From contig NZ_CP045851.1 in NCBI RefSeq assembly GCF_009650215.1, forward strand, positions 186,001 to 250,000: 64,000 nucleotides of DNA, written 5' to 3'. Position numbers and translations under genes: made by a program. Each line of letters starts with the position of its first letter. Within the stretch, counting starts at the first letter, position 1. Shown here one piece after another: positions 23,649-53,858 of this stretch. The notes beneath the pieces were generated by a model, which made no database searches, was not told the DNA's origin, and saw only the letters and a list, made by a program, of their open reading frames with translations. This DNA comes from Actinomarinicola tropica. GTDB taxonomy: Bacteria; Actinomycetota; Acidimicrobiia; Acidimicrobiales; SKKL01.

Positions 23649-24971
23649 ATGAGCACCACCGACATCCCACGCGGACTCGACCAGGGCGCCCAGGAGCTGC
23701 TCGCGCGCGGCCGGACCAGCGCCATCGAGGAGCTGCGCGAGCGCGGCGCGGTCCTGCGCATGTCGGAGGCCGAGTCCCGTCGCTACCAGGACGAGGGCGG
23801 CGGCGACGACGACACCATGATCCTCAACATGGGCCCGCAGCACCCGTCGACCCACGGCGTGCTGCGCCTCATGGTCGAGCTCAAGGGCGAGCAGGTCCTG
23901 CGCACCAAGCCGGTGATCGGCTACCTCCACACCGGCATGGAGAAGACGGGCGAGGACCTCACCTACCTCCAGGGCCCCACCAACACCACGCGGATGGACT
24001 ACGCGTCGCCGCTGTTCAACGAGCTGGTGTTCAGCCTCGCCACCGAGACGCTCCTCGGCGTCGAGATCCCGCCCCGGGCCACCTGGATCCGCATGCTCAT
24101 GTGCGAGCTCAATCGGATCTCGTCGCACCTGCTGTTCATGGCCACCAACGGCATGGACCTCGGCGCTGTCTCGATGATGATCTACGGCTGGCGCGAGCGC
24201 GAGGAGGTCCTCCGCTTCTTCGAGAAGGTCACCGGCCTGCGGATGAACCACAACTACATCCGCCCCGGCGGTGTGGCTGCCGACCTGCCCGACGGCTGGC
24301 GTGACGACGTCCTCCGGCTGCTCGACATGCTCCCGGACCGGCTGGACGAGTACGACACCCTCCTCACCGGACAGCCGATCTGGCGCAACCGCCTCCAGGG
24401 CGTCGGCGTGCTCACCACCGAGGAGGCGCTGGCCCTCGGCACGACGGGTCCTCTGCTCCGCTCCACCGGCTACGCCTGGGACCTCCGCCACGACATGCCG
24501 TACCTCGCCTACGACGAGGTCGACTTCGACGTCATCGTCGGCACCTACGGCGACTGCTTCGACCGCTACGCGATCCGCCTCCAGGAGATCCGCGAGTCGC
24601 TGAAGATCGTCCGCCAGATCCTCGACAAGATGCCCGAGGGCGACTACCGGGTGCAGGACAAGAAGGTCACGCCGCCGCCCCGCGCCCGCATCGACCAGTC
24701 GATGGAGGCGCTCATCCACCACTTCAAGATCTTCACCGAGGGCTTCAAGGTGCCCGAGGGGGAGGCCTACGCCGCCGTCGAATCGCCCCGGGGCGAGCTC
24801 GGCTGCTACATCGTGTCGGATGGGTCCTCGAAGCCGATGCGCATGCACATCCGGGGGCCGTCGTTCGTGAACCTCCAGACCCTCCCGCACCTCATGCACG
24901 ACCGCTTCATCGCCGACGCCGTCGCCATCATCTCCTCGGTCGACCCGATCCTCGGGGAGGTCGACCGCTAG
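23649..24971 (+). CDS. nuoD: NADH-quinone oxidoreductase subunit D (copy 1)
   Basis: This 440-residue 49-kDa subunit forms the quinone pocket with NuoB. NMGPQHPSTHG (60-70) contains the quinone-site histidine loop. The next block is GYLHTGMEK (91-99): Thr95 stands where copy 2 and mitochondrial NDUFS2 have Arg. A 55-residue N-terminal extension precedes the fold. ATG start after a 43-nt gap, the largest inside the nuo set; its stop overlaps nuoE. Confidence 0.94.
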   Translation: MSTTDIPRGLDQGAQELLARGRTSAIEELRERGAVLRMSEAESRRYQDEGGGDDDTMILNMGPQHPSTHGVLRLMVELKGEQVLRTKPVIGYLHTGMEKTGEDLTYLQGPTNTTRMDYASPLFNELVFSLATETLLGVEIPPRATWIRMLMCELNRISSHLLFMATNGMDLGAVSMMIYGWREREEVLRFFEKVTGLRMNHNYIRPGGVAADLPDGWRDDVLRLLDMLPDRLDEYDTLLTGQPIWRNRLQGVGVLTTEEALALGTTGPLLRSTGYAWDLRHDMPYLAYDEVDFDVIVGTYGDCFDRYAIRLQEIRESLKIVRQILDKMPEGDYRVQDKKVTPPPRARIDQSMEALIHHFKIFTEGFKVPEGEAYAAVESPRGELGCYIVSDGSSKPMRMHIRGPSFVNLQTLPHLMHDRFIADAVAIISSVDPILGEVDR

Positions 24972-27036: not shown

Positions 27037-29849
27037 GCGACGTCCGCCCCGCCACCGACACCGTGCGCATCACGCTCAACGGCAAGGAGGTCGACGTCCG
27101 CAAGGACGAGCAGCTGATCGACGCCGCCGAGCGCCACGGGGTCTACATCCCCCGGTTCTGCTACCACCCGCGGATGACCGCGGTCGGCAAGTGCCGCCAG
27201 TGCATCGTCGAGGTCGACACCGGCCGCGGCATGGCGCTCCAGCCCTCGTGCATGCTCAAGGTCTCCGACGGCATGGTCGTCGACACCGACTCCGAGCTCT
27301 CGAAGCAGGTGCAGGAGGGCGTCCTCGAGCACCTGCTCATCAACCACCCGCTCGACTGCCCGGTCTGCGACAAGGGCGGCGAGTGCCCCCTCCAGGACCA
27401 GGCCTACTCGCACGGGCCCGGCGAGAGCCGGTTCGTCGAGGAGAAGCGCCACTTCGAGAAGCCGATCCCGATCAGCCCGATCGTCACCCTCGACCGCGAG
27501 CGCTGCATCCTCTGCGACCGCTGCACCCGCTTCGCCGACGAGGTCGCCGGCGACCCGCTCATCCACTTCATCGACCGGGGCAACGCGACCCAGGTCAACA
27601 CCTTCCCCGACGACCCCTTCGCCTCGTACTTCTCGGGCAACACGGTCCAGATCTGCCCGGTCGGCGCGCTCACCGCGACGCCGTACCGCTTCAAGGCCCG
27701 TCCGTGGGACCTGGAGAAGGAGGAGTCGACCTGCCAGTCGTGCTCGGTCGGCTGCCGCATCACCGTGCAGACCTCGCGCAACCGCGTCCTGCGGTACGAG
27801 GGCGTCGACTCCGACCCGGTCAACTGGAGCTGGCTCTGCGACAAGGGCCGCTTCGGCTTCGAGAGCATCCACAGCGAGGACCGCATCGCCGCCCCGCTCC
27901 GCCGCGCCGCCGACGGCGAGCTCGCACCGGTCCGCTGGGCCGAGGCGCTCGACGCCGCGGCCGACGCCATCTCCTCCGCGATCGCCGGGTCCGGCCCCGA
28001 GAGCGTCGCCGTCCTCGGCGGCAGCCGCCTCACCAACGAGAGCGCCTACGCCTGGGCCAAGCTGGCCAAGGGCGTCATCGGCACCGACAACGTCGATGCG
28101 CAGCTCGGCGACGGCCTGCCCGCCGACCTCGTGCTCGGCCTGCCCCGCGCCACCATCGACCAGGCCTGCACGCCGGGCGGCACCATCGTGCTCCTCGGCC
28201 CGGACCCGAAGGAGACCCTGCCGGTCCTCTTCCTCCGGTTGCGCCACGCCGTCGTCCACGACGGGGCGCGGCTCGTCGAGATCACCCCGACCGCCACCGG
28301 GCTCTCGTCGCTCGCCGCGGCGTCGGTCCACCCCACGCCCGGCCACACCGCCGAGGTCGTGCGGGCCCTCCTCGACGGCGACACCGCGAAGGCCGTCGGC
28401 GGCGTCGAGCCCGACGCGCTCGTGTCGGCCGCCGAGCTGCTGCGCACCGACGGCCCGCTCACGATCGTCGTCGGCCGCGGCTCGCTCGCCGAGTCGGCCG
28501 ACGTCACCGTCGAGGCCGCCGCCGTCCTCCACGACGCCTGCCCCGACGCCCGCTTCCTCCCCGGCCTGCGCCGCTCCAACGTCATGGGCGCGCTCGACAT
28601 GGGGCTCGCCCCGGGCCTGCTGCCCGGACGCGTCCTGCTCGAGGACGGTCGCGACTGGATCCTCGACACCTGGGAGTCCGCGCCGTCGAGCGCCGGACTC
28701 GACGCCGCCGGCATCCTCACCGCCGCCGCCGAGGGTCGCATCGACACGCTCGTGCTGCTCGGGGCCGACCCCCTCGCCGACTTCCCCGACGCCGACCTCG
28801 CCGCCCGGGCCCTCGCCGGTGCCCGCACGGTCGTCGCGCTCGACCGCTTCGTCACCGACTCGGTCGCCAAGGCCGACGTCGTGCTGCCCGTCGCCGGCTT
28901 CGCCGAGACCGACGGCACCACCACCAACATCGAGGGCCGCGTCTCGGTCCTCGCCCAGCGGGTCACCCCGCCGGGATCCGCGCAGCCCGACTGGTCGATC
29001 GCGGTGAGCATCGCCCGCCGCCTCGGCGCCGACCTCGGCTTCGAGTCGCCCGAGGACATCTGGAACGAGGTCCTCCAGGTCTCGGGCGTGCACGCCGGGG
29101 TCAGCCTCGACGTCCTGCGGCGCCGGGCCAACGCCGACGGCGTGGTCGTGCCGCCCGCCCCCACCGAGGTCAGCATCGGCGGCGTGCGCACCTCCGAGGT
29201 CGACGAGGTCGAGGCCGCCAGCCCCGACGCCGACGCCTCCGCCCCGCCTGCGGACGGCAACATGCCGCCGTCGGACCCCGACGCCCCGGGCGACATCGCA
29301 CCCGGCACCGACGAGGCGGCCGAGCCCATCGACACGACCACCGACGCGGCCGAGGGCGCCGAGCTGGGCGAGCAGGTCGCCGAGCAGGTCGAGGAGGCCG
29401 TCGCCGAGGGCGACGCCGGCGACCGCCCGGAGGCCGACGACCCGTCGTCGCCGGTCAGCCCCGGCCCCGCCCGGCCCGAGGCGCTGCGGTTCGTCGCCCC
29501 CGCGGCCACCGCCGTCCCCGGTCCCGTCGACGCCTACAGTCTCCGCCTCGTGACCGTCCGCACCCTCTACGACCGGGGCACCCAGCTCACGCACTCGCCG
29601 TCGCTCAACCACCTCGCCGCCGGACCCGCCGTGCGGCTCCACCCCGCCGACTTCGACAAGGTCGGCGTCGCAGCGGGCACCGAGGTGCGGGTGACGTCGC
29701 CCTCGGGCTCGGTCGTGCTGCCGGTGCACCCCGACGTGCGGGTGCCGCGCGGACGGGCGGCGGTCAACGCCAACCAGTCCAACGCCCGGGTCCACGAGCT
29801 GCTCGACGCCACTGCGGTGGCCACCGACGTCCGGGTCGAGGTGCTGTAG
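27033..29849 (+). CDS. nuoG: NADH-quinone oxidoreductase subunit G (copy 1)
   Basis: This 938-residue 75-kDa subunit has an N-terminal 2Fe-2S ferredoxin domain, an H-box (HPLDCPVCDKGGECPLQDQ), the 4Fe-4S motif CILCDRCTRF with CPVG, and an extra CQSCSVGC motif with a distal Cys for cluster N7. A molybdopterin-oxidoreductase-like domain follows. Residues about 722-816 are a Glu/Asp/Pro/Ala-rich low-complexity insert before the C-terminal beta domain. ATGA overlap with nuoF. Confidence 0.94.
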   Translation: MSDVRPATDTVRITLNGKEVDVRKDEQLIDAAERHGVYIPRFCYHPRMTAVGKCRQCIVEVDTGRGMALQPSCMLKVSDGMVVDTDSELSKQVQEGVLEHLLINHPLDCPVCDKGGECPLQDQAYSHGPGESRFVEEKRHFEKPIPISPIVTLDRERCILCDRCTRFADEVAGDPLIHFIDRGNATQVNTFPDDPFASYFSGNTVQICPVGALTATPYRFKARPWDLEKEESTCQSCSVGCRITVQTSRNRVLRYEGVDSDPVNWSWLCDKGRFGFESIHSEDRIAAPLRRAADGELAPVRWAEALDAAADAISSAIAGSGPESVAVLGGSRLTNESAYAWAKLAKGVIGTDNVDAQLGDGLPADLVLGLPRATIDQACTPGGTIVLLGPDPKETLPVLFLRLRHAVVHDGARLVEITPTATGLSSLAAASVHPTPGHTAEVVRALLDGDTAKAVGGVEPDALVSAAELLRTDGPLTIVVGRGSLAESADVTVEAAAVLHDACPDARFLPGLRRSNVMGALDMGLAPGLLPGRVLLEDGRDWILDTWESAPSSAGLDAAGILTAAAEGRIDTLVLLGADPLADFPDADLAARALAGARTVVALDRFVTDSVAKADVVLPVAGFAETDGTTTNIEGRVSVLAQRVTPPGSAQPDWSIAVSIARRLGADLGFESPEDIWNEVLQVSGVHAGVSLDVLRRRANADGVVVPPAPTEVSIGGVRTSEVDEVEAASPDADASAPPADGNMPPSDPDAPGDIAPGTDEAAEPIDTTTDAAEGAELGEQVAEQVEEAVAEGDAGDRPEADDPSSPVSPGPARPEALRFVAPAATAVPGPVDAYSLRLVTVRTLYDRGTQLTHSPSLNHLAAGPAVRLHPADFDKVGVAAGTEVRVTSPSGSVVLPVHPDVRVPRGRAAVNANQSNARVHELLDATAVATDVRVEVL

Positions 29850-37926: not shown

Positions 37927-39123
37927 TCAGTCGCCGGGGACCGTGGTGGTCGGCATCACCGTCGTCTCCGTCGTCACGCCCTCGTCCGGGCCGATGGTCG
38001 TGGTCTCGGTGCTCATGGTCGTGTCGGTGACGTGGGGTGGGACGGCGGTCGACGGCGGGGACGACGCGTCGGCGACCTCGTGCAGCAGCACCGGGAACGA
38101 GCGGCCGTTCGTGTCGCCGTCGCGGACGACGACCTCGCAGAAGCTGGTGAGCGACCGGCAGTCGACGACGCCGTCGGCCCCCGCGATGCTGGCCGGCGCG
38201 GGGAGGGAGAACGTCGCCGTGCCGTCGGGCCCGGCGACCACCTCGGTGCCGCCCGGTGACGCACACGCCGGCTCTCCGCCCACGGCGCAGAACGTGTAGG
38301 CCTCGGCACCGGAGGCGCACGCCGACACGTAGGTGGGATGCCCCCACTGGTCGACCTCGCCGCCCTCGCCCTGGCCGCAGACGTCGACCCACCAGGACGA
38401 GCCCGGCGCGGCGTTCTCGACGGTGACGGTGAGCGTGTCGCCGACCGACACCGGGCCCTGCGGGTCCATGTGGATCGACAGCGGCGGCGTGCCCGGGACG
38501 TCGGGGTCGAAGTGGACGCCGATGGTGCCCGACTGGTCGTAGTCGTCGATCGCGCCGACCGCGACGACGCAGGTGTGGGTGGAGCCCTCGGGCGGCGCCT
38601 GGGCGCAGTCGTGCACGCCGTTGGCGAGGGTGACGTAGCGGCGCACCGGGTGCTCGGCGCTGAAGTTGCCCTGGGCGTCCGACGTCACGGCGGTGTACGG
38701 CGAGATCTGGCAGTTGTCGACCCCACCGATCGACGACGGCCCGAGCGGCGTGCACATCACGATGCCGAGGTTGCGGCTCGGAGGGAAGCCCGAGCCGCTG
38801 ACCGTCACCGTCTGGCCGTCGACGAGCCCCTGGGCGGGTGTCGCCTGGACCGGCAGGCGCAGGGAGTCGAGGCCGTCGCGGGGCCCGCCGACGGCCGTGG
38901 CCCCGTCGAGCTCGAACGCCAGGTCCTCGGTCAGGTCGTCATCGGTGCCCGGGTCGTCGGCGCCGGGGTCCTGTGCGGCGACGACGACGCCGATGAGCAG
39001 CACGAGCGCGGCGAAGATCGCCGTCGGCGCCCAGCGGGGGAGCCCTCGCCCCGGTTCCGCCGGCTGGAGCTCCACCACCGCCTCGGGGGCACCTCCACGC
39101 CCGTCGTCCGCCGCTCCGCCCAT
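37927..39123 (-). CDS. Membrane-anchored exported protein with neocarzinostatin-like domains
   Basis: This 398-residue protein has a short cytoplasmic N-terminus, one membrane helix (33-50), an acidic linker, then extracytoplasmic Ig-like domains. Residues about 92-207 ([20 protein letters not shown] onward, with paired cysteines) resemble the neocarzinostatin/macromomycin apoprotein family. A second, similar unit starts near residue 213. The last 50 residues are Thr/Pro/Ser-rich, as in wall-spanning tails. ATG start preceded by GGGAGAG. It lies between two complex I operons on the opposite strand. The fold call is by motif memory; the ligand is unknown. Confidence 0.7.
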
Positions 39124-39279: not shown

Positions 39280-39645
39280 GTGTCGGAATTCCTCCGGAAC
39301 TACCTCACCGTCGCCATCTTCGGCGGTGTCGCCGTCCTCCTGGTCGGCGGCATCCTCTCGATCGGTCGCATCCTGCGTCCCTCCCGGCCGCAGCCGCAGA
39401 AGTACACGACCTACGAGAGCGGTGTGGACCCGGTCGAGGGCGGCTGGTCCCAGAGCCAGGTCCGCTACTACATCTTCGCCCTGCTGTTCGTGATGTTCGA
39501 CGTCGAGGCCGTCTTCATCTTCCCGTGGGCGACCCGCCTCGAGGTCTACGACATGTTCGGCCTGGTCGAGATGGCGATCTTCATCTTCATCCTCGCCCTC
39601 GGCCTCCTCTACGCCTGGCGCAAGAAGGTGCTCCGATGGGTCTAG
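39280..39645 (+). CDS. nuoA: Complex I subunit A (copy 2)
   Basis: This 121-residue three-helix subunit opens the EFG-less operon. Conserved blocks are [20 protein letters not shown] and [18 protein letters not shown]. It is shorter than copy 1 because it lacks the C-terminal tail. The GTG start follows a leaderless-type promoter; its 3' end overlaps nuoB2 by 10 nt. Confidence 0.94.
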
Positions 39646-40136
39646 TCGAGAGCGGCAAGCTGCCGAAGCCGCTCACGTCGCTGCTTAACCTCAGCCGCAA
39701 GTACTCCATCTGGGCCTACCAGTGGGGTCTCGCGTGCTGCGCCATCGAGATGGGTGCGGCGCTCGCCTCGCCGCGGTACGACGTGATGCGCCTCGGCGTC
39801 ATCCCGTTCCCCGCCAGCCCCCGCCAGGCCGACCTCGTCATCATCTCGGGCACGGTCACCGACAAGATGGCGCCGGCCGTGCTGCGCCTCTACGAGCAGA
39901 TGCCCGACCCGAAGTACGTCATCTCCATGGGCTCCTGCGCCAACTGCGGCGGCCCCTACTGGGACTCGTACTCGGTCACCAAGGGCGTCGACCAGATCAT
40001 CCCCGTGGACGTCTACGTCCCGGGCTGCCCGCCGCGGCCCGAGGCGCTGCTCGAGGGCATCGTGCTGCTCCAGGAGCGCATCCAGAACGAGGACATGGCG
40101 GCACGTTGGAAGGGTGAGCCCATTGTCGTCGCCTGA
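39636..40136 (+). CDS. nuoB: Complex I subunit B (copy 2)
   Basis: This 166-residue N2-cluster subunit has Cys34-Cys35 ([10 protein letters not shown]), Cys101 ([10 protein letters not shown]) and Cys131 (VPGCPPRPE). Cys104 is an additional cysteine absent from copy 1. Start ATG lies inside the nuoA2 end; its own end overlaps nuoC2 by up to 23 nt. Confidence 0.95.
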
Positions 40137-40827
40137 CGCCCCCGTCGACGAGGCGGAGGCCACCGAGGAGGAGACCGTCGAGACCGACGAGCGGCGCGAG
40201 TCGCTGCTCGCCGAGGTCACCGAGGCCCTCGGGGCCGACCACGTCGTCGCCAGCCACATCGCCCCGGGCCAGGACCTCTGGATCCGCGTCGCCACCCCCG
40301 CGTGGGCCGACCTCGCCCGCATCCTCCGCGACCTCGGCTTCAGCTACTTCACGTTCCTCTCGGCCATCGACTGGATGCCCTCGCCCTTCGGCCGGGGCAT
40401 GGACGCCGAGGTCGACAAGGTGCTCGAGGGCGCGCTGCCGAAGGAGCCGGGCGAGATCGAGCACGGCGTCACCGGCGGCACCGGCCGCTTCGAGGTGTTC
40501 GCCCGCGTCTACTCGATCGACCGCACGATCGGCCTCACGCTCAAGACCGACGTCCCCGAGGACACGATGACCGTCGAGACCTGGACGGGCACCTACGCCG
40601 GGGCCGACTGGCACGAGCGCGAGGCGTGGGAGATGTTCGGCATCACCTTCGAGGGCCACCCGCGCCTGCGCCACATCTACCTCCCGAGCGACTTCGAGGG
40701 GAACCCGCTGCGCAAGGACTTCCCGCTGCTCGCCCGCCACGTCAAGCCGTGGCCGGGCATCGTCGACGTCGAGCCCATGCCGGGCGAGGACGACGAGGCG
40801 GCGGCCGACGGCGGGGAAGGGGAGTGA
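40114..40827 (+). CDS. nuoC: Complex I subunit C (copy 2)
   Basis: This subunit of about 237 residues has acidic tails at both ends and the 30-kDa core with [20 protein letters not shown] and [14 protein letters not shown]. Start GTG 40114 or in-frame TTG 40123; GGAAGGG precedes the TTG at good distance. An insert of about 25 residues lies in the middle relative to copy 1 ([14 protein letters not shown] region). Confidence 0.92.
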
Positions 40828-40831
40828 TCCG

Positions 40832-42004
40832 ATGACCGCGATCTCCGAACGGCGCCAGCTGGCCTACATGGCCGCCCAGGCCGCCGACGCCCGGGTCAAC
40901 GTCGAGCTCGAGACCGAGGGCATGACCCTCAACATGGGCCCGCAGCACCCGGCCACCCACGGCACGCTCCGCATCGTCGCCAAGCTCGACGGCGAGCAGG
41001 TCGTCTCCGCCGATCCGATCATGGGCTACATGCACCGGGGCTACGAGAAGCTCACCGAGGTGCGCACGTACCCGCAGGTCACGACGCTGGTGAACCGCAT
41101 CGACTGGCTCGGCAGCTTCGCCAACGAGGTCCCGTTCATCCTCGCCGCCGAGCGGCTGATGGAGGTCGAGGCCCCGCCCCGCGCCCAGTGGATCCGCACG
41201 ATCTTCTTCGAGCTGTCCCGCATCGCCAACATCACCCTGTTCATGGGCGACATGGCGCTCCAGCTCGGCGCCCAGACGCCGGCGTTCTACGCCTTCCGCG
41301 ACCGCGAGTTCGTCCTCAACCAGATCGAGGCGGCCACCGGTGGGCGGTTCCACCCCAACTTCGACCGCATCGGCGGCCTGAAGGACGATCTGCCGAAGGG
41401 CTGGATCGAGGAGACCCGCGGCGCCATGGTCAAGGTGCGCGAGTTCTGCGACATCATGGAGGACCTCGTCACCGGGAACGAGATCTTCGAGGCCCGCACC
41501 CGCGGCGTCGGGGTCATCCCCGCCGACGTCGCCCAGTCCTACGGCCTCTCCGGCGCCAACCTGCGCGCCTCGGGCATCGACTGGGACCTCCGCCGGGACG
41601 AGCCGGTCGGCCTGGCCTGGAACGAGGTCGACTGGAAGGTCTGGACCCACCCCGACGGCGACTCGTTCGCCCGGTTCTGGGTCCGCCTCCAGGAGACCCG
41701 CGAGGCCACCCGCATCATCGACCAGCTGCTCGACGGCCTGCCGTCGGGGCCGATCATGGCCAAGGTCCCCCGCATCATCAAGGTGCCGGCGGGCGAGGCG
41801 TGGATCTCGACGGAGAACCCGCTCGGCGAGATGGGGTACTACATCGTCTCGAAGGGCGACCTCACGCCGTACCGCGTGAAGATCCGCTCGGCGTCGTTCA
41901 ACAACGTGTCGATCGTCCCGTGGGTGCTGCGGGGCGTCTACGTGCCCGACATCATCACGATCCTCGCCAGCCTCTACTTCATCCTCGGAGACATCGACCG
42001 GTGA
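40832..42004 (+). CDS. nuoD: Complex I subunit D (copy 2)
   Basis: This 390-residue quinone-site subunit has LNMGPQHPATHG (33-44) and GYMHRGYEKL (65-74). Arg69 corresponds to the NDUFS2 arginine dimethylated by NDUFAF7 in mitochondria; copy 1 has Thr there. It lacks the long N-terminal extension of copy 1. ATG start 4 nt after nuoC2; GTGA overlap with nuoH2. Confidence 0.95.
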   Translation: MTAISERRQLAYMAAQAADARVNVELETEGMTLNMGPQHPATHGTLRIVAKLDGEQVVSADPIMGYMHRGYEKLTEVRTYPQVTTLVNRIDWLGSFANEVPFILAAERLMEVEAPPRAQWIRTIFFELSRIANITLFMGDMALQLGAQTPAFYAFRDREFVLNQIEAATGGRFHPNFDRIGGLKDDLPKGWIEETRGAMVKVREFCDIMEDLVTGNEIFEARTRGVGVIPADVAQSYGLSGANLRASGIDWDLRRDEPVGLAWNEVDWKVWTHPDGDSFARFWVRLQETREATRIIDQLLDGLPSGPIMAKVPRIIKVPAGEAWISTENPLGEMGYYIVSKGDLTPYRVKIRSASFNNVSIVPWVLRGVYVPDIITILASLYFILGDIDR

Positions 42005-43038
42005 CCGACCTCGTGCTCGGCATCGAGCTCGCCTACTGGCAAGAGACCCTCATCAAGGTCGGCGTCGTCGCCGCGCTCGTGCCCACCTCGGCGCTGATCC
42101 TCGGCTACGTCTTCCTCCTGAAGATGATGAGCTTCATGCAGAGCCGCCTGGGCCCGATGGAGTCCGGCCCCTACGGCCTGCTCCAGCTCGTCGGTGACGG
42201 CGTGAAGTTCCTCCAGAAGGAGGACATCTTCCCGGCCAAGGCCGACAAGTGGGTGTTCGCCTTCGCCCCGTTCGTCGTCGTCATCTCGACGCTGCTCATC
42301 TTCGTGTTCGTGCCCGTCGGGCCCGACCTCGTCGGCTCGCCCGTCGACACCGGCGTGTTCGCCGCCCTGGCGGTGTCGTCGATCTCGGTCATCGGCATCC
42401 TGATGGCCGGCTGGTCCTCGGCCAACAAGTACTCGCTGATGGGTGGCCTCCGTGCCGCCGGCCAGCTCATCGCCTACGAGCTGCCCCTGGTCCTCGCCGT
42501 CGTCGGCGTGGTCATCCAGGCCGAGACCCTCAGCCTCCAGGGCATCATCGGCGCCCAGGCCGAGGGCGAGATCTTCGGCATCGGCGCCATCGGCAACCCG
42601 TTCATCATCACCCAGTTCGTCGGGTTCGTGATCTTCATGATCGCCATCCAGGCCGAGCTCACCCAGACCCCGTTCGACATGCCGGTCGCCGAGTCCGAGA
42701 TCGTGGGCGGCTACCAGGTGGAGTACACCGGCTTCCGGTTCCTCACCTTCTTCATCGGCGAGTTCGGCACCGCCTTCGTCTTCGCCGGCCTCGCCTCGGT
42801 GCTCTTCCTCGGCGGCTGGTGGGTGCCCGGCTTCGACCTCGACTCGAACGCCCTCAACGTCGTCGGGCCGCTGGTGATGTTCGCCAAGATCATGTTCGTC
42901 TCGTTCCTGATCTTCTGGTTCCGCTTCACCTACCCCCGCATGCGTGAGGACCAGCTGCAGTCGTTCGCCTGGAAGGTGCTCATCCCCGTGTCCCTCGTGA
43001 ACATCGTCGCCACAGGCGTGCTGAAGGTGGTGTTCTGA
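42001..43038 (+). CDS. nuoH: Complex I subunit H (copy 2)
   Basis: This 345-residue eight-helix subunit has [36 protein letters not shown] and the acidic loop [20 protein letters not shown]. The C-terminus is shorter than copy 1. Gene order D-H reveals that E, F and G are missing. Confidence 0.95.
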
Positions 43039-43526
43039 TGCCCCAGCTCCCCGGCCTGGTGAAGGGCCTCGGCGTCACGTTCAAGACGATGCTGCAGCCC
43101 AACGTCACCGTGCAGTACCCCCGCGAGAAGGAGGCGCCGCCCACCAGGGCCCGCGGCGTCATCGCGCTCAAGGAGGAGAACTGCACCGTCTGCATGCTCT
43201 GCGCACGCGAGTGCCCGGACTGGTGCATCTACATCGAGGGCCACAAGTACCTCGCCCCTCCCCGGCGTGAGGGTGGCAAGCCCCGCCAGAAGAACGCCCT
43301 CGACCGATTCGACATCGACTACGCGCTCTGCATGTACTGCGGGATCTGCGTCGAGGTCTGCCCATTCGAGGCGCTCTTCTGGAGCCCCGAGTTCGAGTAC
43401 TCCGAGCCCCGGATCGCCGATCTGCTCCACGACAAGACGATGCTCGGCCACTGGATGACCACCGTCCCCGACTTCGAGCCCTACGAGTCCGGCTCGGAGG
43501 CCAAGGTGAAGAAGGTGCCGCGCTAG
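43038..43526 (+). CDS. nuoI: Complex I subunit I (copy 2)
   Basis: This 162-residue subunit has two 4Fe-4S motifs, Cys49/52/55/59 ([12 protein letters not shown]) and Cys98/101/104/108 ([12 protein letters not shown]). Without NuoEFG, these and N2 are the only iron-sulfur clusters of complex I copy 2, so an outside donor must reduce NuoI directly or through a partner. One-base overlaps on both sides. Confidence 0.94.
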
Positions 43527-44044
43527 TGGACACCGTGTGGGGCGACAACGTCGCCCAGAACATCGCCTTCTACGTCATCGCCGCGATCATGGTGGTCGGC
43601 GCCCTCAAGGTCGTCACCACCAAGAACGTGGTGCATGCCGCGCTCTACCTCGTCGCCGTGCTCACCGGCATGGCCGGGCAGTTCATCCTGCTCGGCGCGG
43701 AGTTCATCGCCATCACCCAGATGCTGGTGTACGTCGGGGCGATCGTCGTCCTCTTCCTCTTCGGCATCATGCTGACCCGGGCCCAGCTCGGGAAGGACCC
43801 CGACGTCGACGGCACCACGGTGCAGAAGACGAGCGGCGTCCTCGTCGCCCTCGTCCTCCTCGTCGTGATGGGCTACGCCATCTACGACCGCTTCGAGGGC
43901 GTCGAGCTCGCCGAGGAGCGGGTCCAGCCCACGGCGATGGTCGCCGACTCCATCTTCTCCACCTACATCGTCCCGTTCGAGGCCATCTCGGTGCTGCTCC
44001 TCGCAGCGCTGATCGGCGCGATCGTGCTGGCGAGGAGGGACTGA
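43526..44044 (+). CDS. nuoJ: Complex I subunit J (copy 2)
   Basis: This 172-residue five-helix subunit has [20 protein letters not shown] in helix 3. GTG start overlapping the nuoI2 stop by one base; nuoK2 follows after 4 nt. Confidence 0.93.
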   Translation: MDTVWGDNVAQNIAFYVIAAIMVVGALKVVTTKNVVHAALYLVAVLTGMAGQFILLGAEFIAITQMLVYVGAIVVLFLFGIMLTRAQLGKDPDVDGTTVQKTSGVLVALVLLVVMGYAIYDRFEGVELAEERVQPTAMVADSIFSTYIVPFEAISVLLLAALIGAIVLARRD

Positions 44045-44048
44045 CGCC

Positions 44049-44348
44049 GTGCTGCTGACGAACTTCCTGATGCTGTCGTCGATCCTGTTCTGCATCGGCG
44101 TCTACGGCGTCCTCGCCCGCAAGAACGCGGTCATGGTCCTCATGTCGATCGAGCTGATCCTCAACGCCGTCAACATCAACCTGGTGGCGTTCGGCGTGAT
44201 CAACGGCTCGATCTCCGGCCACGTGTTCGCGCTGTTCATCGTGGCCGTCGCCGCGGCCGAGGTCGGCGTCGGCCTGGCCCTGGTGCTGCTCATCTACCGC
44301 AACCGATCGAGCATCGACCTCGACGAGCTCGATCTGATGAAGGGCTGA
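44049..44348 (+). CDS. nuoK: Complex I subunit K (copy 2)
   Basis: This 99-residue three-helix antiporter-like subunit has VLMSIELILNAVNINLVAFG and AAAEVGVGLALVLLIYRNR, with the two buried glutamates present. GTG start. Confidence 0.94.
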   Translation: MLLTNFLMLSSILFCIGVYGVLARKNAVMVLMSIELILNAVNINLVAFGVINGSISGHVFALFIVAVAAAEVGVGLALVLLIYRNRSSIDLDELDLMKG

Positions 44349-44356
44349 CGCGACTC

Positions 44357-46498
44357 ATGTGGTTCCTCGAGAACGCCTGGATCATCCCTGCCATCCCGGC
44401 CGCGTCGTTCCTGCTCATCCTCTTCTTCGGCAAGCGGATGCCCCGGGGCGGCTCGGAGATCGGCATCGCCGCGGTCGGCCTGTCGTTCCTCCTGTCGGTC
44501 GGCGCGGGCGTGTCCTGGATCGACCGGGTCGAGAACCCGCCACCCGCGGACGACCACGGCACCGAGGAGGTCGAGCACGAGGAGGACGCGGAGGAGCACG
44601 CCGCGGGCGACCTCGTCGTCGTCGGCCCCACCGAGTCCGCCGCCGAGGCGGGCGAGGAGGAGCGCCACGCCGTCGAGCCCGTCACCCGGTCCTGGACCTG
44701 GTGGCAGTCCGGCGGCACCGAGTTCCAGGTCGGGACCTTCGTCGACGGGCTCAGCGTGATGATGCTGTTCGTCGTCGGGCTGATCTCGCTGCTCGTGCAC
44801 GTCTACTCGACCGAGTACGTGAAGGGCGACCGGCGGTTCACGCACTTCTTCGCCTTCCTCAGCCTCTTCACCGCCTCGATGATGACCCTCGTCATCTCCG
44901 AGAACACGCTCCAGATCATCACCGCCTGGGAGGCGGTGGGCGTCTGCTCGTTCGCCCTCATCGGGCACTGGTGGGAGGACAAGGCCAACGGCGACGCCGC
45001 GCTCAAGGCCTTCCTCACCAACCGCGTCGGCGACGTCGGCCTGATCATCGGCATGATCACGCTCTACTTCGCCGCCGACAGCTTCAACATCGTCGAGATC
45101 AACAGCCTGGCCAGCGCCGGCGAGCTGTCCCACACGGCCCTGCTCGTCGCCTCGCTCTGCCTCATCGCCGCGGTCATGTCCAAGTCCGGCCAGTTCTTCC
45201 TCCACACCTGGCTCCCCGACGCCATGGCCGGCCCCACCCCCGTCTCCGCGCTGCTGCACTCCGCGACCATGGTCGTCGCCGGCATCTTCATGGTCGGCCG
45301 GATGTACGGCGTGTTCTGGGAGGGCCTGTCGATCGGCACCTCCACGATCAACGCCCTCGCCGTCGTCGGCGGCATCACGACCCTCGTCGGCGCATCGCTC
45401 GCCTTCGTGCAGCGCGACATCAAGAAGGTCCTCGCCTACTCGACGATCAGCCAGCTCGGCTACATGGCCATGGCCCTCGGCGTCGGCGCCTGGACCGCGG
45501 CGCTGTTCCACCTCTTCACCCACGCCTTCTTCAAGGCCTGCTTGTTCCTCGGGGCCGGGTCGGTCAGCCACGCCTGCCATCACAGCTTCGACATGGTCAA
45601 GGACATGGGCGGCCTGCGGAAGTACATGCCGCACACCTTCCGGACCTTCATGATCGGCTCGATCGCGCTCGCCGGGATCCCGCCGCTCGCCGGCTTCTGG
45701 TCGAAGGACGAGATCCTGGCCGGCGCCCAGCAGCTCGGCGACGGCGGCTACACGCTCATGCTCGTGATGGGCCTCGTGACCGCCGGCCTGACCGGCGCCT
45801 ACGTCACGCGCATGGTGTACCTCACCTTCTTCGGCGAGTACCGCGGCCACGGCACCCCCCACGAGTCCCCCAAGGCGATCACCACGCCGCTGTGGATCCT
45901 GGCCGGCTTCGCCGCCCTGGCCGGCGGGCTCAACCTGCCCGACGCCATCGTCCCCGAGAGCGTGGCGCTGCAGTTCGAGCACTACGTCGAGCCGACCGCC
46001 GCCTACTTCCCCGACATCAGCCACCCGTCGTTCAGCTGGGGCCTGGCCATCGGCTCCACCCTCATCGCCGCGGCCGGCATCGCGCTGTCCTACAGCTACT
46101 GGTTCCTCGGGAAGTTCCACGGGCTCACCGAGCGCAACGCCCTCGCCATGCGCGGCTACCGCCTGCTCGAGAACAAGTACTACCTCGACGTCCTCTACAC
46201 CGACGTCATCGTCGGCTCGGTGAAGGGGCCCATCGCCCGGGCGTCGAACTGGGTCAACCAGAACCTCATCGACGCCGTGCCGAACACCGTCGGCCGCACC
46301 ACCGTCCAGGTCGGGCGCGGTGCCTACCGCTACGTCGACCAGGCCGTCGTCGACGGCGCGGTCAACCTCTCCGGCCGCTCGGCCGAGGCCTCCGGGTCGG
46401 GTCTGCGCCTGGCGCAGACCGGCCGGGTGCGCCAGTACGGAAGCCTCATGTTCGGGGGCGCAGCCATCCTGGCCGCCGTCCTCGTCGTCATCGTCTGA
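44357..46498 (+). CDS. nuoL: Complex I subunit L (copy 2)
   Basis: This 713-residue pumping subunit has TAWEAVGVCSFALIGHWWED, LHTWLPDAMAGPTPVSALLH and VQRDIKKVLAYSTISQLGYM. Residues about 63-113 are an acidic Glu/His-rich loop between early helices, at a different place from the acidic loop of copy 1. The C-terminal lateral helix is present. A 36-nt gap precedes nuoM2. Confidence 0.95.
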   Translation: MWFLENAWIIPAIPAASFLLILFFGKRMPRGGSEIGIAAVGLSFLLSVGAGVSWIDRVENPPPADDHGTEEVEHEEDAEEHAAGDLVVVGPTESAAEAGEEERHAVEPVTRSWTWWQSGGTEFQVGTFVDGLSVMMLFVVGLISLLVHVYSTEYVKGDRRFTHFFAFLSLFTASMMTLVISENTLQIITAWEAVGVCSFALIGHWWEDKANGDAALKAFLTNRVGDVGLIIGMITLYFAADSFNIVEINSLASAGELSHTALLVASLCLIAAVMSKSGQFFLHTWLPDAMAGPTPVSALLHSATMVVAGIFMVGRMYGVFWEGLSIGTSTINALAVVGGITTLVGASLAFVQRDIKKVLAYSTISQLGYMAMALGVGAWTAALFHLFTHAFFKACLFLGAGSVSHACHHSFDMVKDMGGLRKYMPHTFRTFMIGSIALAGIPPLAGFWSKDEILAGAQQLGDGGYTLMLVMGLVTAGLTGAYVTRMVYLTFFGEYRGHGTPHESPKAITTPLWILAGFAALAGGLNLPDAIVPESVALQFEHYVEPTAAYFPDISHPSFSWGLAIGSTLIAAAGIALSYSYWFLGKFHGLTERNALAMRGYRLLENKYYLDVLYTDVIVGSVKGPIARASNWVNQNLIDAVPNTVGRTTVQVGRGAYRYVDQAVVDGAVNLSGRSAEASGSGLRLAQTGRVRQYGSLMFGGAAILAAVLVVIV

Positions 46499-46534: not shown

Positions 46535-48094
46535 ATGGAAGATTTCCTCAACGACTGGGGACTGAGCGCTGCAGTGTTCCTGCCGCTCGTCGGCGCCGCG
46601 GTGATGGCGCTGATCCCCCGTGCGGAGGAGCAGCTCCACAAGACGATCGCCCTGCTCACCACCCTGGTGGTCGCCGGCGTCGGGGTGGCGCTCGTCGCCA
46701 ACTTCGACTTCGACCGGGGTGACGAGCTCCAGTTCGTCGTCGACGCGAGCTGGATCGACGTCATCAACAGCCGGTTCATCGTCGGGCTCGACGGCATCTC
46801 GCTGCCGCTGTTGCTGCTGACGATGCTCGTGGTGCCCTTGTGCGTCGTCTACTCGTGGAACCACTTCCCCGAGCCGCACAACCCGAAGGCGTTCCTCATC
46901 CTCATCCTGATCCTCCAGACCGGCATGATCGGGACGTTCGTCGCCCAGGACCTCATCCTCTTCTTCGTCTTCTTCGAGGTCGTGCTCCTGCCGATGTACT
47001 TCATGATCGGCGTCTGGGGCGGCGAGCAGCGGCAGTACGCGTCGATCAAGTTCTTCCTCTACACGCTGTTCGGCTCGGCGCTGATGCTCGTCAGCTTCCT
47101 GGCCCTCTACTTCCTCGCCGACGGCACCGACACCATCGCCGGCGTGGCGAACACCTTCGACATGCGGGCCCTGCCCGAGGCGGCCTCCGGCATCGCGAAG
47201 ACGAGCCAGCTGTGGATCTTCGGCGGCATGTTCCTCGGCTTCGGCATCAAGGTGCCGATCTTCCCGTTCCACACCTGGCTGCCCGACGCCCACACCCAGG
47301 CGCCCACGGTCGGCTCGGTCATCCTGGCCGCGGTGCTCCTGAAGCTCGGCACCTACGGCTTCATCCGCATCGCCATCCCGACCCTCCCCGAGGCCGCGAT
47401 CGAGTGGGCACCGTTCATCGGCGCCCTCGCGGTCATCGGCATCATCTACGGCGCACTGTGCTGCCTGGCCCAGACCGACATGAAGCGGCTCATCGCCTTC
47501 TCGTCGGTGGCGCACATGGGCTTCACGATGCTCGGCATCGCCACCCTCACCGACTTCGGGATGAACGCCGCCATCTTCGGCATGGTCGCCCACGGCCTCA
47601 TCACCGGCATGCTCTTCTTCGTCGCCGGATCGATGAAGGAGCGCTACCACACGCTCGAGATCCAGCGCCTCGGCGGCCTCCTCGTGTCGGCGCCGAAGAT
47701 GGGCTGGATCCTCGGCCTCTCCACGATGGCGTCGCTCGGCCTGCCCGGCCTCGCCGGCTTCTGGGGTGAGGTCCCGGCGATCCTCGCCTCCTACAACCCG
47801 GCCGAGGGCCTGTCGGTGCCGCTGTTCCGCACCTACATGGTCATCGCCGCCATCGGCACGGTGTTCGCCGCCGGCTACCTGCTGTGGCTCTACCAGCGCA
47901 CCGCCTTCGGCACCCCGAAGGAGGAGTTCGCCGAGGATCCGCACATCACCGACGTCACCGGCCCCGAGTGGATCGCCTGGCTGCCGATGATCGCCCTGAT
48001 CCTCGTCCTCGGCGTGTACCCGAACCTCCTGTTCGACATCACCGACCCCGCCGTCGGCGTCGTCAGCGAGCTCGTCGCCGGGGTCGGGTCCTGA
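46535..48094 (+). CDS. nuoM: Complex I subunit M (copy 2)
   Basis: This 519-residue pumping subunit has VGLDGISLPLLLLTMLVVPL, FFVFFEVVLLPMYFMIGVWG, FHTWLPDAHTQAPTVGSVIL and TDMKRLIAFSSVAHMGFTML. It lacks the acidic C-terminal tail of copy 1. ATG start. Confidence 0.95.
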   Translation: MEDFLNDWGLSAAVFLPLVGAAVMALIPRAEEQLHKTIALLTTLVVAGVGVALVANFDFDRGDELQFVVDASWIDVINSRFIVGLDGISLPLLLLTMLVVPLCVVYSWNHFPEPHNPKAFLILILILQTGMIGTFVAQDLILFFVFFEVVLLPMYFMIGVWGGEQRQYASIKFFLYTLFGSALMLVSFLALYFLADGTDTIAGVANTFDMRALPEAASGIAKTSQLWIFGGMFLGFGIKVPIFPFHTWLPDAHTQAPTVGSVILAAVLLKLGTYGFIRIAIPTLPEAAIEWAPFIGALAVIGIIYGALCCLAQTDMKRLIAFSSVAHMGFTMLGIATLTDFGMNAAIFGMVAHGLITGMLFFVAGSMKERYHTLEIQRLGGLLVSAPKMGWILGLSTMASLGLPGLAGFWGEVPAILASYNPAEGLSVPLFRTYMVIAAIGTVFAAGYLLWLYQRTAFGTPKEEFAEDPHITDVTGPEWIAWLPMIALILVLGVYPNLLFDITDPAVGVVSELVAGVGS

Positions 48095-48098
48095 GCTG

Positions 48099-49598
48099 AT
48101 GGATCCCACCGCCCTCCTCACCGTCGCCTTCGAGCGGCCCCCCATCGACTGGCACGCGGTCGCGCCCGAGCTCACCCTGCTCGGCGTCGGTGCGCTGCTC
48201 ACGTTGCTCGACGTGGTCCTGCTCGAGCGGGGGCGCAAGTACATGCCGGCCCTGGCCGGGATCGGCGTGCTCGTCACGCTCGTCCCGATCCTCACCCTGG
48301 CGGTCGACGGCACCAACCGCACGATGTTCGGTGGGGCGTTCGTCGTCGACGAGTTCGCGCTGCTGTTCAAGGCGCTGATCCTCGTCTCGGGCTACGTCGT
48401 GATCCTGCTCTCCACCAACTACGTCGCCGAGGGCGACTACTGGGAGTCGGAGTACTACGGCCTGCTGCTGTCGTCGATGATGGGCATGGTCCTCATCGCG
48501 TCGGCCCGCGACCTCATCACGCTGTTCGTCGCGCTGGAGCTGCTCTCGATCCCCGCCTACCTGCTCGCCGGCTGGCGCAAGCGGGCCCTCGAGGGCAACG
48601 AGGCGGGCATGAAGTACTTCCTGATGGGCGTGTTCGCCTCGGCGATCATGCTCTACGGCATGTCGCTGCTCTACGGCGTCGCCGGCGACACCCGCCTCTC
48701 GGCGATCGGTGAGGCCGTGCACGGCAGCGAGTCCGTCCCGCTCATCACGCTCGGCGTCGTGTTCACCCTGATCGGCTTCGCCTTCAAGGTCTCGGCCGTG
48801 CCGTTCCACACGTGGGCCCCGGACGTCTACCAGGGCGCTCCCACGCCGATCACCGGCTTCCTGGCCGTGGCCTCGAAGACCTCGGGCTTCATCGCCCTGC
48901 TCCAGCTCGTGTTCGTGGCGTTCCCCGACCGCGACGACGTGTACCAGCCGCTGTTCTGGGTGCTCGCCCTCCTGACCATGACGGTCGGCAACCTGGTCGC
49001 CCTGCGGCAGACCAACGTCGTGCGGCTGTTCGCCTACTCGGGCGTGGCCCAGGCCGGCTACATCCTCTGCGGGCTCGCCGTCGCTGGCGACGTCGGGGAC
49101 CAGGCGCTCCAGGCCATCGCCACCTACCTCGTCATCTACGCGGCGATGAACCTCGGCGTGTTCGCCATCATCATCGCCGTGGCCCGCAAGACCCGCTCCG
49201 GCGACATCGCGAGCTACGGCGGGCTGTTCGAGTACGCCCCGGGCCTCGCGGTCTCGATGGTGGTGTTCCTCTTCGCCCTGGCCGGCATCCCGCCGCTCGC
49301 CGGCTGGTACGCCAAGTTCGCGATCTTCAAGGTCACGGTCGAGGCGAACAGCTGGATCGGCTACAGCCTGGCCGTCGCCGTCGCCATCAACTCGGTGATC
49401 GCGCTCTTCTACTACGCCAACATCGCCCGCCAGATGTTCATGAACCCCGTCCCCGACGGCGACACCACCCGCATCCGGGTGCCGTTCTCGCTCGTCGCGG
49501 CCCTCGTCATCACCGTCGCGGCGACGGTCGCCCTCGGCGTCTACCCCCGGGCGGTCACCCACCTCACCGAGGTGTCGCTGCTCGCCGGCGCGGGCTAG
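48099..49598 (+). CDS. nuoN: Complex I subunit N (copy 2)
   Basis: This 499-residue antiporter-like subunit has LFVALELLSIPAYLLAGW, VPFHTWAPDVYQGAPTPITG and NVVRLFAYSGVAQAGYILCG. The methyltransferase gene begins 3 nt after its stop, so both are cotranscribed. Confidence 0.95.
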   Translation: MDPTALLTVAFERPPIDWHAVAPELTLLGVGALLTLLDVVLLERGRKYMPALAGIGVLVTLVPILTLAVDGTNRTMFGGAFVVDEFALLFKALILVSGYVVILLSTNYVAEGDYWESEYYGLLLSSMMGMVLIASARDLITLFVALELLSIPAYLLAGWRKRALEGNEAGMKYFLMGVFASAIMLYGMSLLYGVAGDTRLSAIGEAVHGSESVPLITLGVVFTLIGFAFKVSAVPFHTWAPDVYQGAPTPITGFLAVASKTSGFIALLQLVFVAFPDRDDVYQPLFWVLALLTMTVGNLVALRQTNVVRLFAYSGVAQAGYILCGLAVAGDVGDQALQAIATYLVIYAAMNLGVFAIIIAVARKTRSGDIASYGGLFEYAPGLAVSMVVFLFALAGIPPLAGWYAKFAIFKVTVEANSWIGYSLAVAVAINSVIALFYYANIARQMFMNPVPDGDTTRIRVPFSLVAALVITVAATVALGVYPRAVTHLTEVSLLAGAG

Positions 49599-49601
49599 TC
49601 G

Positions 49602-50756
49602 GTGCCGCCGGTGTCCTCGACCGGCGACCAGAGCCCGCTCCTCGCGGGCATCGCCCACCTGGTGGAGCGACACGGGCCGGTGCCGTTCTCGGCGGTGGTC
49701 GACGCCGCCCTCTACGACGAGGCGCACGGGTTCTACGGCAGCGGTCGTGGCCACGCCGGGCGGCGCGGCGACTTCATCACCTCGCCGGAGGTCGGCCCGC
49801 TCTTCGGCACGGTCGTCGCCCGGGCCCTCGACCGGTGGTGGGCCGAGTTGGGGCGCCCCGACCCCTTCGTCGTCGTCGAGGGCGGGGCCGGTGTCGGCAC
49901 GCTGGCCATCGCGGTGCTCGCCGCCCGTCCCGCGTGCCGCGGGGCGCTGCGCTACGTGCTGGTGGAGCGGTCACCGGTGCTTCGGCAGCGGCAGTCCGAG
50001 CACCTCGCCCTGGCCGAGCCGGCCACGGCCCTCGGCGTCCCCGGCGGGCACGACGGTCCGGTCGTGGCGTCCCTCGGTGAGCTGCCGGTCACGCCGTTCA
50101 CCGGGGTCGTGATCGCCAACGAGCTGCTCGACAACCTGGCGTTCGACCTGCTCGTGCGCACGGCGGACGGGTGGGGCGAGGTGCGGATCGGCGTCGACGA
50201 GGCCGACGGCGAGCAGCCCCGGCTCGTCCGCCACGTCGTGCCGGCGGGCGAGACGGCCTCGGCGGCCGCGGAGCGGTTCGCGCCCGACGCGGGGGAGGGC
50301 GCCGTGATCCCGTGGCAGCGGGCGGCCTCCGAGTGGGTCGCCGACGCTCTCGGCGTGCTCGAGCGGGGCCGGGTCGTGGTGGTCGACTACGCCGTGCGCA
50401 CCACCGCCGAGCTGGCGGCTCGTCCGCCGGAGGAGTGGCTGCGCACCTATCGGGAGCACGGCCGGGGTGGCGACCCCCTCACCGACCTCGGCACGGCCGA
50501 CATCACCGTCGAGGTCGCACTCGACCAGCTGGAGCACGCCGCAGGTGCCCCAGCGGCGGTGGTGCCCCAGGCGACGTGGCTCCGGGAGCACGGCCTCGAC
50601 GGCCTCGTCGAGGCCGGTCGGCGGACGTGGGAGGAGCGGGCCGGCATCGGCGACCTGGCCGCGATCCGGGCCCGCAGCCGCATCCGGGAGGCGGAGGCCC
50701 TCGTCGATCCTGCCGGGCTCGGGGCGTTCCTCGTCGCCGAGTGGCGGGTGTCCTGA
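49602..50756 (+). CDS. MidA/NDUFAF7-family SAM-dependent methyltransferase
   Basis: This protein of 384 residues has the family block RRGDFITSPEVGPLFG (54-69), SAM motif I VVEGGAGVGTL (91-101) and VIANELLDNLAFD. In mitochondria NDUFAF7 dimethylates one arginine of NDUFS2 (NuoD) and is needed for complex I assembly (established). Here the gene is the last of the nuo2 operon, 3 nt after nuoN2, and NuoD2 keeps that arginine (Arg69). I infer it modifies NuoD2. GTG 49602 or in-frame GTG 49611. Confidence 0.85.
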   Translation: MPPVSSTGDQSPLLAGIAHLVERHGPVPFSAVVDAALYDEAHGFYGSGRGHAGRRGDFITSPEVGPLFGTVVARALDRWWAELGRPDPFVVVEGGAGVGTLAIAVLAARPACRGALRYVLVERSPVLRQRQSEHLALAEPATALGVPGGHDGPVVASLGELPVTPFTGVVIANELLDNLAFDLLVRTADGWGEVRIGVDEADGEQPRLVRHVVPAGETASAAAERFAPDAGEGAVIPWQRAASEWVADALGVLERGRVVVVDYAVRTTAELAARPPEEWLRTYREHGRGGDPLTDLGTADITVEVALDQLEHAAGAPAAVVPQATWLREHGLDGLVEAGRRTWEERAGIGDLAAIRARSRIREAEALVDPAGLGAFLVAEWRVS

Positions 50757-51776: not shown

Positions 51777-51899
51777 GCCGCGCCCGTACCCCGGTGAGCA
51801 GGTCGCCACACCCACGCCCGAGCCGCCGGGCTCGTGTCGCGGGTCACGTCGCTAGGCTCGCCGTCGGACCGAACCGACGAGCCTGAAGGGGGCGCTCGC

Positions 51900-53858
51900 A
51901 TGGCCGAGCCGGCGATCGAGGACCACTACTCCGAGGACCGCACCTTCCCGCCGCCCGACGGGTTCGTCGCCGACGCCCTCGTCCGCGACCGGTCCCTCTA
52001 CGAGGAGGCCGACGCCGATCCGGAGGCCTTCTGGGCCCGCCAGGCCCGCGAGCTGCTCACCTGGCGATCCGACTTCGACACCACGCTCGAGTGGGACCTG
52101 CCGTTCGCGAAGTGGTTCGTCGGCGGCACGCTCAACGTGGCCGAGAACTGCGTCGACCGCCACGTCGAGGCCGGACGAGGCGACAAGGTGGCCATCCACT
52201 GGGAGGGCGAGCCGGGCGACACCCGCACGATCACCTACGCCGACCTGCTCGACGAGGTCTGCCGCTTCGCCAACGTGCTGAAGGGGCTCGGCGTCGAGAA
52301 GGGTGACCGGGTGGCCATCTACATGCCCATGATCCCCGAGCTGCCCGTGGCGATGCTCGCCTGCGCCCGCCTGGGCGCGGCGCACTCGGTGATCTTCGGC
52401 GGCTTCTCACCGGACTCGATCACCGATCGGGTGAACGACGCCGAGGCGAAGGTCGTCGTCACCGCCGACGCCGGCTACCGGCGCGGCGTGGCGTCGATGC
52501 TCAAGCCCAACGTCGACCTCGCGCTCGCCTCCACCCCGTCGGTCGAGCACGTGGTCGTCGTGAACCGGTGCGACACCGAGGTCCACATGGAGGAGGGGCG
52601 CGACCACTGGTGGCACCGCCTCATGGCCGACGCCAGCCCCGACTGCCCGGCCGAGCCGATGGACAGCGAGCAGCTGCTCTACCTGCTCTACACGTCGGGC
52701 ACCACCGCCAAGCCCAAGGGCATCATGCACACCACGGGCGGCTACCTCACCCAGGTCGCGTTCACCCACAAGTACGTGTTCGACCTCCACCCCGACACCG
52801 ACGTCTACTGGTGCGCCGCCGACGTCGGCTGGGTCACCGGGCACAGCTACATCGTCTACGGGCCGCTCGCCAACGGGGCCACCCAGGTCATGTACGAGGG
52901 CACCCCCGACACGCCAGGACGGGACCGGCTGTGGTCGATCGTCGAGAAGTACGGCGTCACGCAGCTCTACACTGCCCCCACCGCCATCCGGACGTTCATG
53001 AAGTGGGGCGTCGAGGAGCCCGAGAAGCACGACCTGTCGTCCCTGCGCCTCCTCGGCACCGTCGGGGAGCCCATCAACCCCGAGGCGTGGATGTGGTACC
53101 ACCGCCACATCGGCGGCGAGCGATGCCCCATCGTCGACACGTGGTGGCAGACCGAGACGGGGGCGATGATGATCACGTCGCTGCCCGGCGTCGTCACCAC
53201 CAAGCCCGGCTCGGCCACCTTCCCGCTGCCCGGCATCGGCGTCGAGGTCGTCGACGACGCCGGCAACCCCGTCGAGCGCGGCGGCGGCTACCTCACCCTC
53301 ACCCGTCCGTGGCCGTCGATGCTGCGGGGCATCTGGGGCGACCCCGAGCGCTACCGCGACACGTACTGGTCCCGCTTCGACGGCCGGTACTTCGCCGGCG
53401 ACGGCGCCAAGATCGACGACGACGGCTACTTCTGGCTGCTCGGTCGGGTCGACGACGTCATGAACATCTCTGGCCACCGCATCTCCACCACCGAGGTCGA
53501 GTCGGCCCTCGTCGCCCACGAGTCGGTGGCCGAGGCCGCCGTCGTCGGCGCCACCGACCCCACCACCGGCCAGGCGATCATCGCCTACGTCATCCTCCGA
53601 GGGAACGTCGAGCCGACGCCGGAGCACGGCGAGCTCCTGCGCCAGCACGTCGCCCAGCAGATCGGTCCCATCGCAAGGCCGAAGACGGTCATCCTCGTGC
53701 CCGACCTCCCGAAGACCCGCAGCGGCAAGATCATGCGCCGCCTCCTGCGCGACGTCGCCGAGGGCCGCGACCTCGGCGACACCACCACGCTCGCCGACCC
53801 CCACGTGTTCGACGAGATCAACGCCCGCGCCGCCGACGCGCCGAGCGGGGAGGACTGA
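51900..53858 (+). CDS. acs: Acetyl-CoA synthetase
   Basis: This 652-residue cytosolic enzyme activates acetate to acetyl-CoA via acetyl-AMP. The Acs pattern is complete: [18 protein letters not shown]-loop [12 protein letters not shown] (Ala replaces one Gly), [32 protein letters not shown], and [15 protein letters not shown]. The catalytic, acetylation-controlled Lys610 lies in [12 protein letters not shown] 51900 has AAGGGGG 7 nt upstream; a TAGGCT at 51853 gives a leader of about 40 nt. Confidence 0.95.

Follow-up and report, generated by a model that had tools for sequence, protein, structure and literature searches.

Does a methyltransferase gene at the end of a second complex I operon serve the NuoD subunit of that same complex? 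The question is raised by midA in the 64,000-nucleotide stretch analysed here (the window), which covers positions 186001–250000 of a single-contig 3.7-Mb actinobacterial genome. The original prediction was that the gene product methylates an arginine present in one of two NuoD paralogues. The sequences, the genomic distribution of the gene, and a structural model together indicate that this is likely.

The locus and the midA gene product

The window contains a 14-gene nuo1 cluster directly followed by an 11-gene nuo2 operon in the order A-B-C-D-H-I-J-K-L-M-N (Table 1). The nuoEFG genes are absent from nuo2, and nuoE, nuoF, and nuoG are found in nuo1 only (24971–29849). Complex I-2 has the composition of an 11-subunit complex I with an intact Fe–S path to cluster N2, as the N2 cysteines of NuoB2 and the 4Fe-4S motifs of NuoI2 are all present. 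An ORF of 398 residues lies between the two clusters on the minus strand (37927–39123) and matches the neocarzinostatin family (PF00960, E 1.2e-8), which is an odd location for such a gene. Downstream of midA is an acetyl-CoA synthetase gene (51834–53858) with strong matches among 80 related loci, L157–L236 (75 matches). A DUF1360 gene between the two is seen only in the window and in L157. Elsewhere in the same genome, at two more loci (3014557–3015980 and 581408–582834), a NuoD/hydrogenase-like large subunit is joined by a NuoH-like protein; these loci possibly encode group 4 hydrogenase-like membrane complexes.

Table 1. Features of the two nuo clusters and midA, in window coordinates
Feature	Position	Strand	Characteristics
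nuoD1 of 14-subunit complex I-1	23649..24971 (start approximate)	+	Thr95 at target position; retains the quinone Tyr and Asp
nuoA2	39280..39645	+	NCBIfam NuoA models
nuoB2	39642..40136 (start approximate)	+	four cluster N2 Cys
nuoC2	40114..40827	+	
nuoD2, proposed MidA substrate	40832..42004	+	Arg69 in HRGYEK; Trp92 at quinone Tyr position; Gln144 at quinone-site Asp position
NuoD2 Arg69 codon, predicted methylation site	41036..41038	+	
nuoH2	42001..43038 (start approximate)	+	
nuoI2	43038..43526	+	two 4Fe-4S motifs
nuoJ2	43526..44044	+	
nuoK2	44049..44348	+	
nuoL2	44357..46498	+	
nuoM2	46535..48094	+	
nuoN2	48099..49598	+	directly upstream of midA
midA, proposed NuoD2 Arg69 methyltransferase	49602..50756	+	MidA/NDUFAF7/COG1565 family, SAM-dependent; PF02636, AlphaFold model, conserved motifs

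The midA ORF has a GTG start and encodes 384 residues. It begins 3 nt after nuoN2, as originally noted. The protein matches Pfam family PF02636 (Methyltransf_28) with an E value of 2.9e-38 and 132.2 bits, against a curated cut-off of 23.3, and is the sole member of this family in the 3.7-Mb genome. An NCBIfam search of the protein returned no equivalog match. Its closest named relatives come from Acidimicrobiia/Acidimicrobiales assemblies. Among solved structures, sequence comparison points to 4f3n, 1zkd, and 5ztz, the last being the NDUFAF7 homologue of Dictyostelium. The protein is only about 21% identical to characterised MidA.

The AlphaFold model of MidA (pLDDT 93, pTM 0.92) aligns with Dictyostelium MidA (5zu0/5ztz) across 352 residues, with a deviation of 2.8 Å and a Z-score of 35.8. 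The next unrelated methyltransferase fold scores 14.3. Z-scores of 14 or below to other methyltransferases reflect the common SAM-binding fold only. The SAM-site glycines G97 and G99, T60 and S61 of the TSPE motif, N173, E174, and D177 of the NExxD motif, and D262 and Y263 of the DY motif are kept in nearly all aligned actinobacterial relatives. The family match and the fold bear out the original assignment of the product as a MidA/NDUFAF7-type methyltransferase.

The proposed target residue and the quinone site in NuoD1 and NuoD2

NuoD2 contains the sequence IMGYMHRGYEK, in which the arginine is residue 69. The corresponding sequence of NuoD1 is IGYLHTGMEK, with a threonine at residue 95 (numbering from MSTTDIPRG). 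Both columns align without gaps with Thr64 of Thermus thermophilus Nqo4, the position orthologous to human Arg85 (PMC3829151), so that Arg69 of NuoD2 coincides with the mitochondrial arginine. Cow, human, Pichia, and Paracoccus denitrificans carry a symmetric dimethylation on the homologous arginine, but in E. coli it is unmodified (PMC3750175). The pairing of HRG in NuoD2 with HTG in NuoD1 and the residue logic built on it in the original prediction are therefore correct.

A quick phylogenetic tree of NuoD, which includes some long branches, places the NuoD2 proteins of nuo2 operons and of solo genes in one arginine-bearing clade (99% SH-aLRT) apart from the rest. All Thr-type NuoD1 proteins fall on one side of a single branch (support 95). 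A single origin of the threonine, in the NuoD1 line, is thus the simplest account and would fit the loss of a methylation site in complex I-1.

The quinone site of complex I-2 is unusual in its aligned residues. Compared with the T. thermophilus subunit, NuoD2 keeps His43 but carries Trp92 in place of Tyr87 and Gln144 in place of Asp139, and the canonical set of quinone ligands is incomplete. In NuoD1, the quinone tyrosine is kept. All NuoD proteins of the nuo2/solo clade examined, across actinobacterial families, possess a tryptophan at the Tyr87 position; members of the clade without midA carry it too, and the tryptophan is thus not tied to MidA itself. The Asp139 position is occupied by Gln or Glu, and once by Asp, while the equivalents of T. 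thermophilus His38 and Arg84 are kept.

Distribution of midA and Arg-type NuoD

In public genomes, 76 of 80 Acidimicrobiia-type MidA loci have nuoN2 directly upstream of midA on the same strand. The spacing is at most 350 nt in 72 of the 76, typically about 26 nt and mostly within about 50 nt, and it is larger (1–4 kb) in four. No upstream nuo match was found at the remaining four loci, two of which lie at a contig edge. Wherever NuoD falls in range, it contains HRGYEK (44/44). Within the order and class of the window, midA and an HRG-type NuoD occur together in 26 genomes; none has midA only, one has HRG only, and 11 have neither. The contig of the single HRG-only genome (G145) stops before the expected place of midA. 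Genomes of the same order that lack nuo2 also lack midA. Six loci labelled Rubrobacter, Acidobacteria, Bifidobacterium breve, or Rhodospirillaceae (L190, L192, L196, L198, L200, and L212) display a nuoN2–midA arrangement of the Acidimicrobiia type, and their labels or binning are probably wrong.

The co-occurrence was also counted over 396 genomes, all Actinobacteria. Both midA and the exact HRG motif occur in 74, midA only in 27, HRG only in 75, and neither in 220. The association exceeds chance (Fisher p 3e-17, a value that overstates independence as the genomes are related). Inspection of the 27 midA-only genomes identified 19 with an Arg-type NuoD in which a neighbouring residue is altered (HRAAEK, HRSVEK, HRAFDK, GNLHRGVEK, or similar), three with Thr-type NuoD only, and five drafts without a usable NuoD. 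In families f22, f56, and f59, alanine replaces the glycine after the arginine, a point that weighs against the proposed target. An Arg-type NuoD is present in 93 of the 96 evaluable midA-positive genomes (101 midA-positive genomes in total). The three with Thr-type NuoD only are G092, G208, and G279, and the midA match of G279 is partial and weak. G092 (L141) and G208 (L142) contain a midA homologue, although the only NuoD found in them is of the Thr type; contigs may be missing, or the enzyme may have another substrate there. In family f26, G141 is the only genome with midA and an HRG-type NuoD; both lie on one small contig (C498), and the pair may stem from horizontal transfer or assembly contamination.

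The correlation expected from the original prediction is thus present in one direction, midA being nearly always accompanied by the arginine, and the lack of correlation that would have spoken against the prediction was not observed. The reverse fails, because the arginine often occurs without midA (families f24, f39, f46, and f53; E. coli, PMC3750175). A profile search built on 18 diverse MidA sequences found no midA in genomes of families f24, f39, f46, f53, and f72 with Arg-type NuoD2, and a strict two-way co-occurrence was rejected. The genomes of these families, including G009 (L156), contain complete nuo2 operons or a NuoD2 with HRGFEK, whose arginine may be unmethylated or may be the substrate of another enzyme. 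In G307, which was negative by Pfam, the profile search revealed a divergent midA 2 kb from nuoD2. As Arg-type NuoD2 without midA is common, the arginine is not kept for MidA alone.

In nine genomes read (families f21, f22, f33, f45, f56, and f62), the nuo2 cluster has the order A-B-(C)-H-I-J-K-L-M-N and contains no nuoD. The separated nuoD2 is close to the sole midA in those families and lies about 200 kb from nuo2 in G023. Measured at 19 separated loci, the distance from nuoD2 to midA has a median of 99 nt; it is below 3 kb in 17 and about 6.7 kb in two. Relative to nuoD2, midA is convergent, upstream on the same strand, or divergent, depending on the family, which argues that proximity has been kept through rearrangement. 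The f33 genomes are Streptomyces-sized, and a nuoD2 separate from the nuo2 operon has been independently reported for Streptomyces (PMC8388888). In family f16, midA and nuo2 are unlinked, lying on different contigs in G081 for example; nevertheless, the two occur together in 12 genomes and are both missing from G058 and G231. The persistence of midA beside nuoD2 outside the operon, together with the co-occurrence in f16 despite the lack of linkage, suggests that MidA has NuoD2 as its partner: the gene follows nuoD2 and not the operon.

Proposed reaction, alternatives, and known systems

We consider it likely that MidA methylates Arg69 of NuoD2. NDUFAF7 (PMC3829151, PMC9006661) is the model from which we infer the reaction, its symmetric character, and a part in assembly. 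The midA product would be a seven-β-strand, SAM-dependent protein arginine methyltransferase that binds SAM and NuoD2 and symmetrically dimethylates Arg69, which lies next to cluster N2, while the 11-subunit complex I-2 is being assembled. As proposed for NDUFAF7, it would reach NuoD2 in a free or early-assembled state, either ahead of its docking to NuoB2 or in the course of it, and before the interface closes around N2. The modification may tune N2 or the packing around it, or aid assembly of complex I-2. Complex I-1 would require no methylation, and NuoD1, with its threonine, cannot be a substrate at that site.

The main alternative is that MidA acts on NuoD2 or an assembly intermediate at another residue, or serves mainly as an assembly chaperone, and that Arg69 is kept for the stability of N2. 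The coupling to nuoD2 does not specify a residue, and the arginine is kept in NuoD2 clades without midA and in the unmethylated NuoCD of E. coli (PMC3750175). In Yarrowia, N2 stability needs the arginine itself (PMC8042128). However, characterised members of the family act on exactly this residue, the arginine is present in almost every midA-positive genome even where the following glycine is altered (HRA, HRS), and the catalytic-type residues of MidA are conserved; we regard this alternative as improbable.

Were midA a housekeeping methyltransferase of another target, located by chance at the 3′ end of nuo2, linkage alone would yield the perfect HRGYEK co-occurrence in the Acidimicrobiia. Such hitchhiking, already disfavoured and rejected here, is very unlikely, as midA leaves with nuoD2 in several families and in several orientations, which is the strongest argument against it; in addition, the co-occurrence persists unlinked in f16, and members of the same order that have no nuo2 also have no midA. 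A different subunit of complex I-2, such as NuoB2 or NuoC2, would be compatible with the position of midA inside the nuo2 operon in Acidimicrobiia and with nuoC2 accompanying the split nuoD2–midA pair in G021. At the other split loci, however, nuoD2 alone lies beside midA, and A2, B2, C2, and H2–N2 are together elsewhere, which leaves this choice of target very little credit. Methylation of DNA by Wolbachia MidA has been reported upon expression in E. coli, so that other MidA substrates are possible (PMC12455994).

A wider reading built on Arg69 methylation is possible but rather doubtful: Actinobacteria may run two complexes I that differ by a post-translational switch. One would be a Thr-type NADH complex that needs no methylation. 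The other would be an Arg-type complex without the NADH module. Its quinone site, non-canonical in having Trp for Tyr and Gln or Glu for Asp, would be assembled and tuned through methylation of NuoD2 by MidA, possibly to suit another electron donor and another quinone or acceptor.

The reason for a methylated arginine near N2 in complex I is hard to establish, in part because mammals cannot do without the enzyme. The two NuoD paralogues offer a control within one cell, one complex having the target residue and a paired midA and the other being unmethylatable at that site. In such bacteria, the effect of methylation is separable from that of the arginine, and the function of methylation becomes testable. 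Streptomyces, which is genetically tractable, appears to carry the separated nuoD2–midA pair.

MidA is reportedly of proteobacterial origin, according to a publication of 2018. The function of prokaryotic MidA has so far been inferred only in silico (PMC12455994). A search confined to the open literature yielded no report of midA next to actinobacterial nuo genes. The COG1565/DUF185 proteins 4f3n/4g67 of Burkholderia thailandensis and 1zkd of Rhodopseudomonas palustris share the fold and motifs of the window MidA (Z 33–35); they were solved as uncharacterised proteins, and their entries assign no substrate. The gene content of nuo2 is that of the 11-subunit, NADH-module-less complex I (nuoABCDHIJKLMN without nuoEFG), but nuo2 here adds midA, and its NuoD has a tryptophan in place of the quinone tyrosine. 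The Streptomyces system (PMC8388888) likewise comprises a second nuo operon without nuoD and a separate nuoD2; the passages of that report consulted here do not mention a methyltransferase gene beside nuoD2.

Human and Dictyostelium NDUFAF7/MidA, which act on Arg85 of NDUFS2, resemble the window MidA in Pfam family, in fold, and in the target position within the 49-kDa/NuoD subunit. The window protein, in contrast, is bacterial, is distant in sequence from them, is known here from sequence and a model, and has its gene coupled to one NuoD paralogue out of two. Symmetric dimethylation of Nqo4 Arg65 in P. denitrificans (PMC3750175) concerns a bacterial complex I and the homologous arginine, but that complex is a conventional NADH-dependent one, whereas here an 11-subunit second complex I exists beside a separate Thr-type paralogue. 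The proposal of a paralogue-specific bacterial system stands as regards the enzyme family and fold, the substrate residue, the Arg/Thr difference between the paralogues, and the non-random coupling to Arg-type NuoD, but arginine methylation of a bacterial complex I is not itself new. The enzyme family and the modification are already known, including the Paracoccus example; judged by the open literature searched, the paralogue-restricted pairing with an NADH-module-less complex I, the actinobacterial spread, and the nuoD2–midA pair outside the operon appear to be new.
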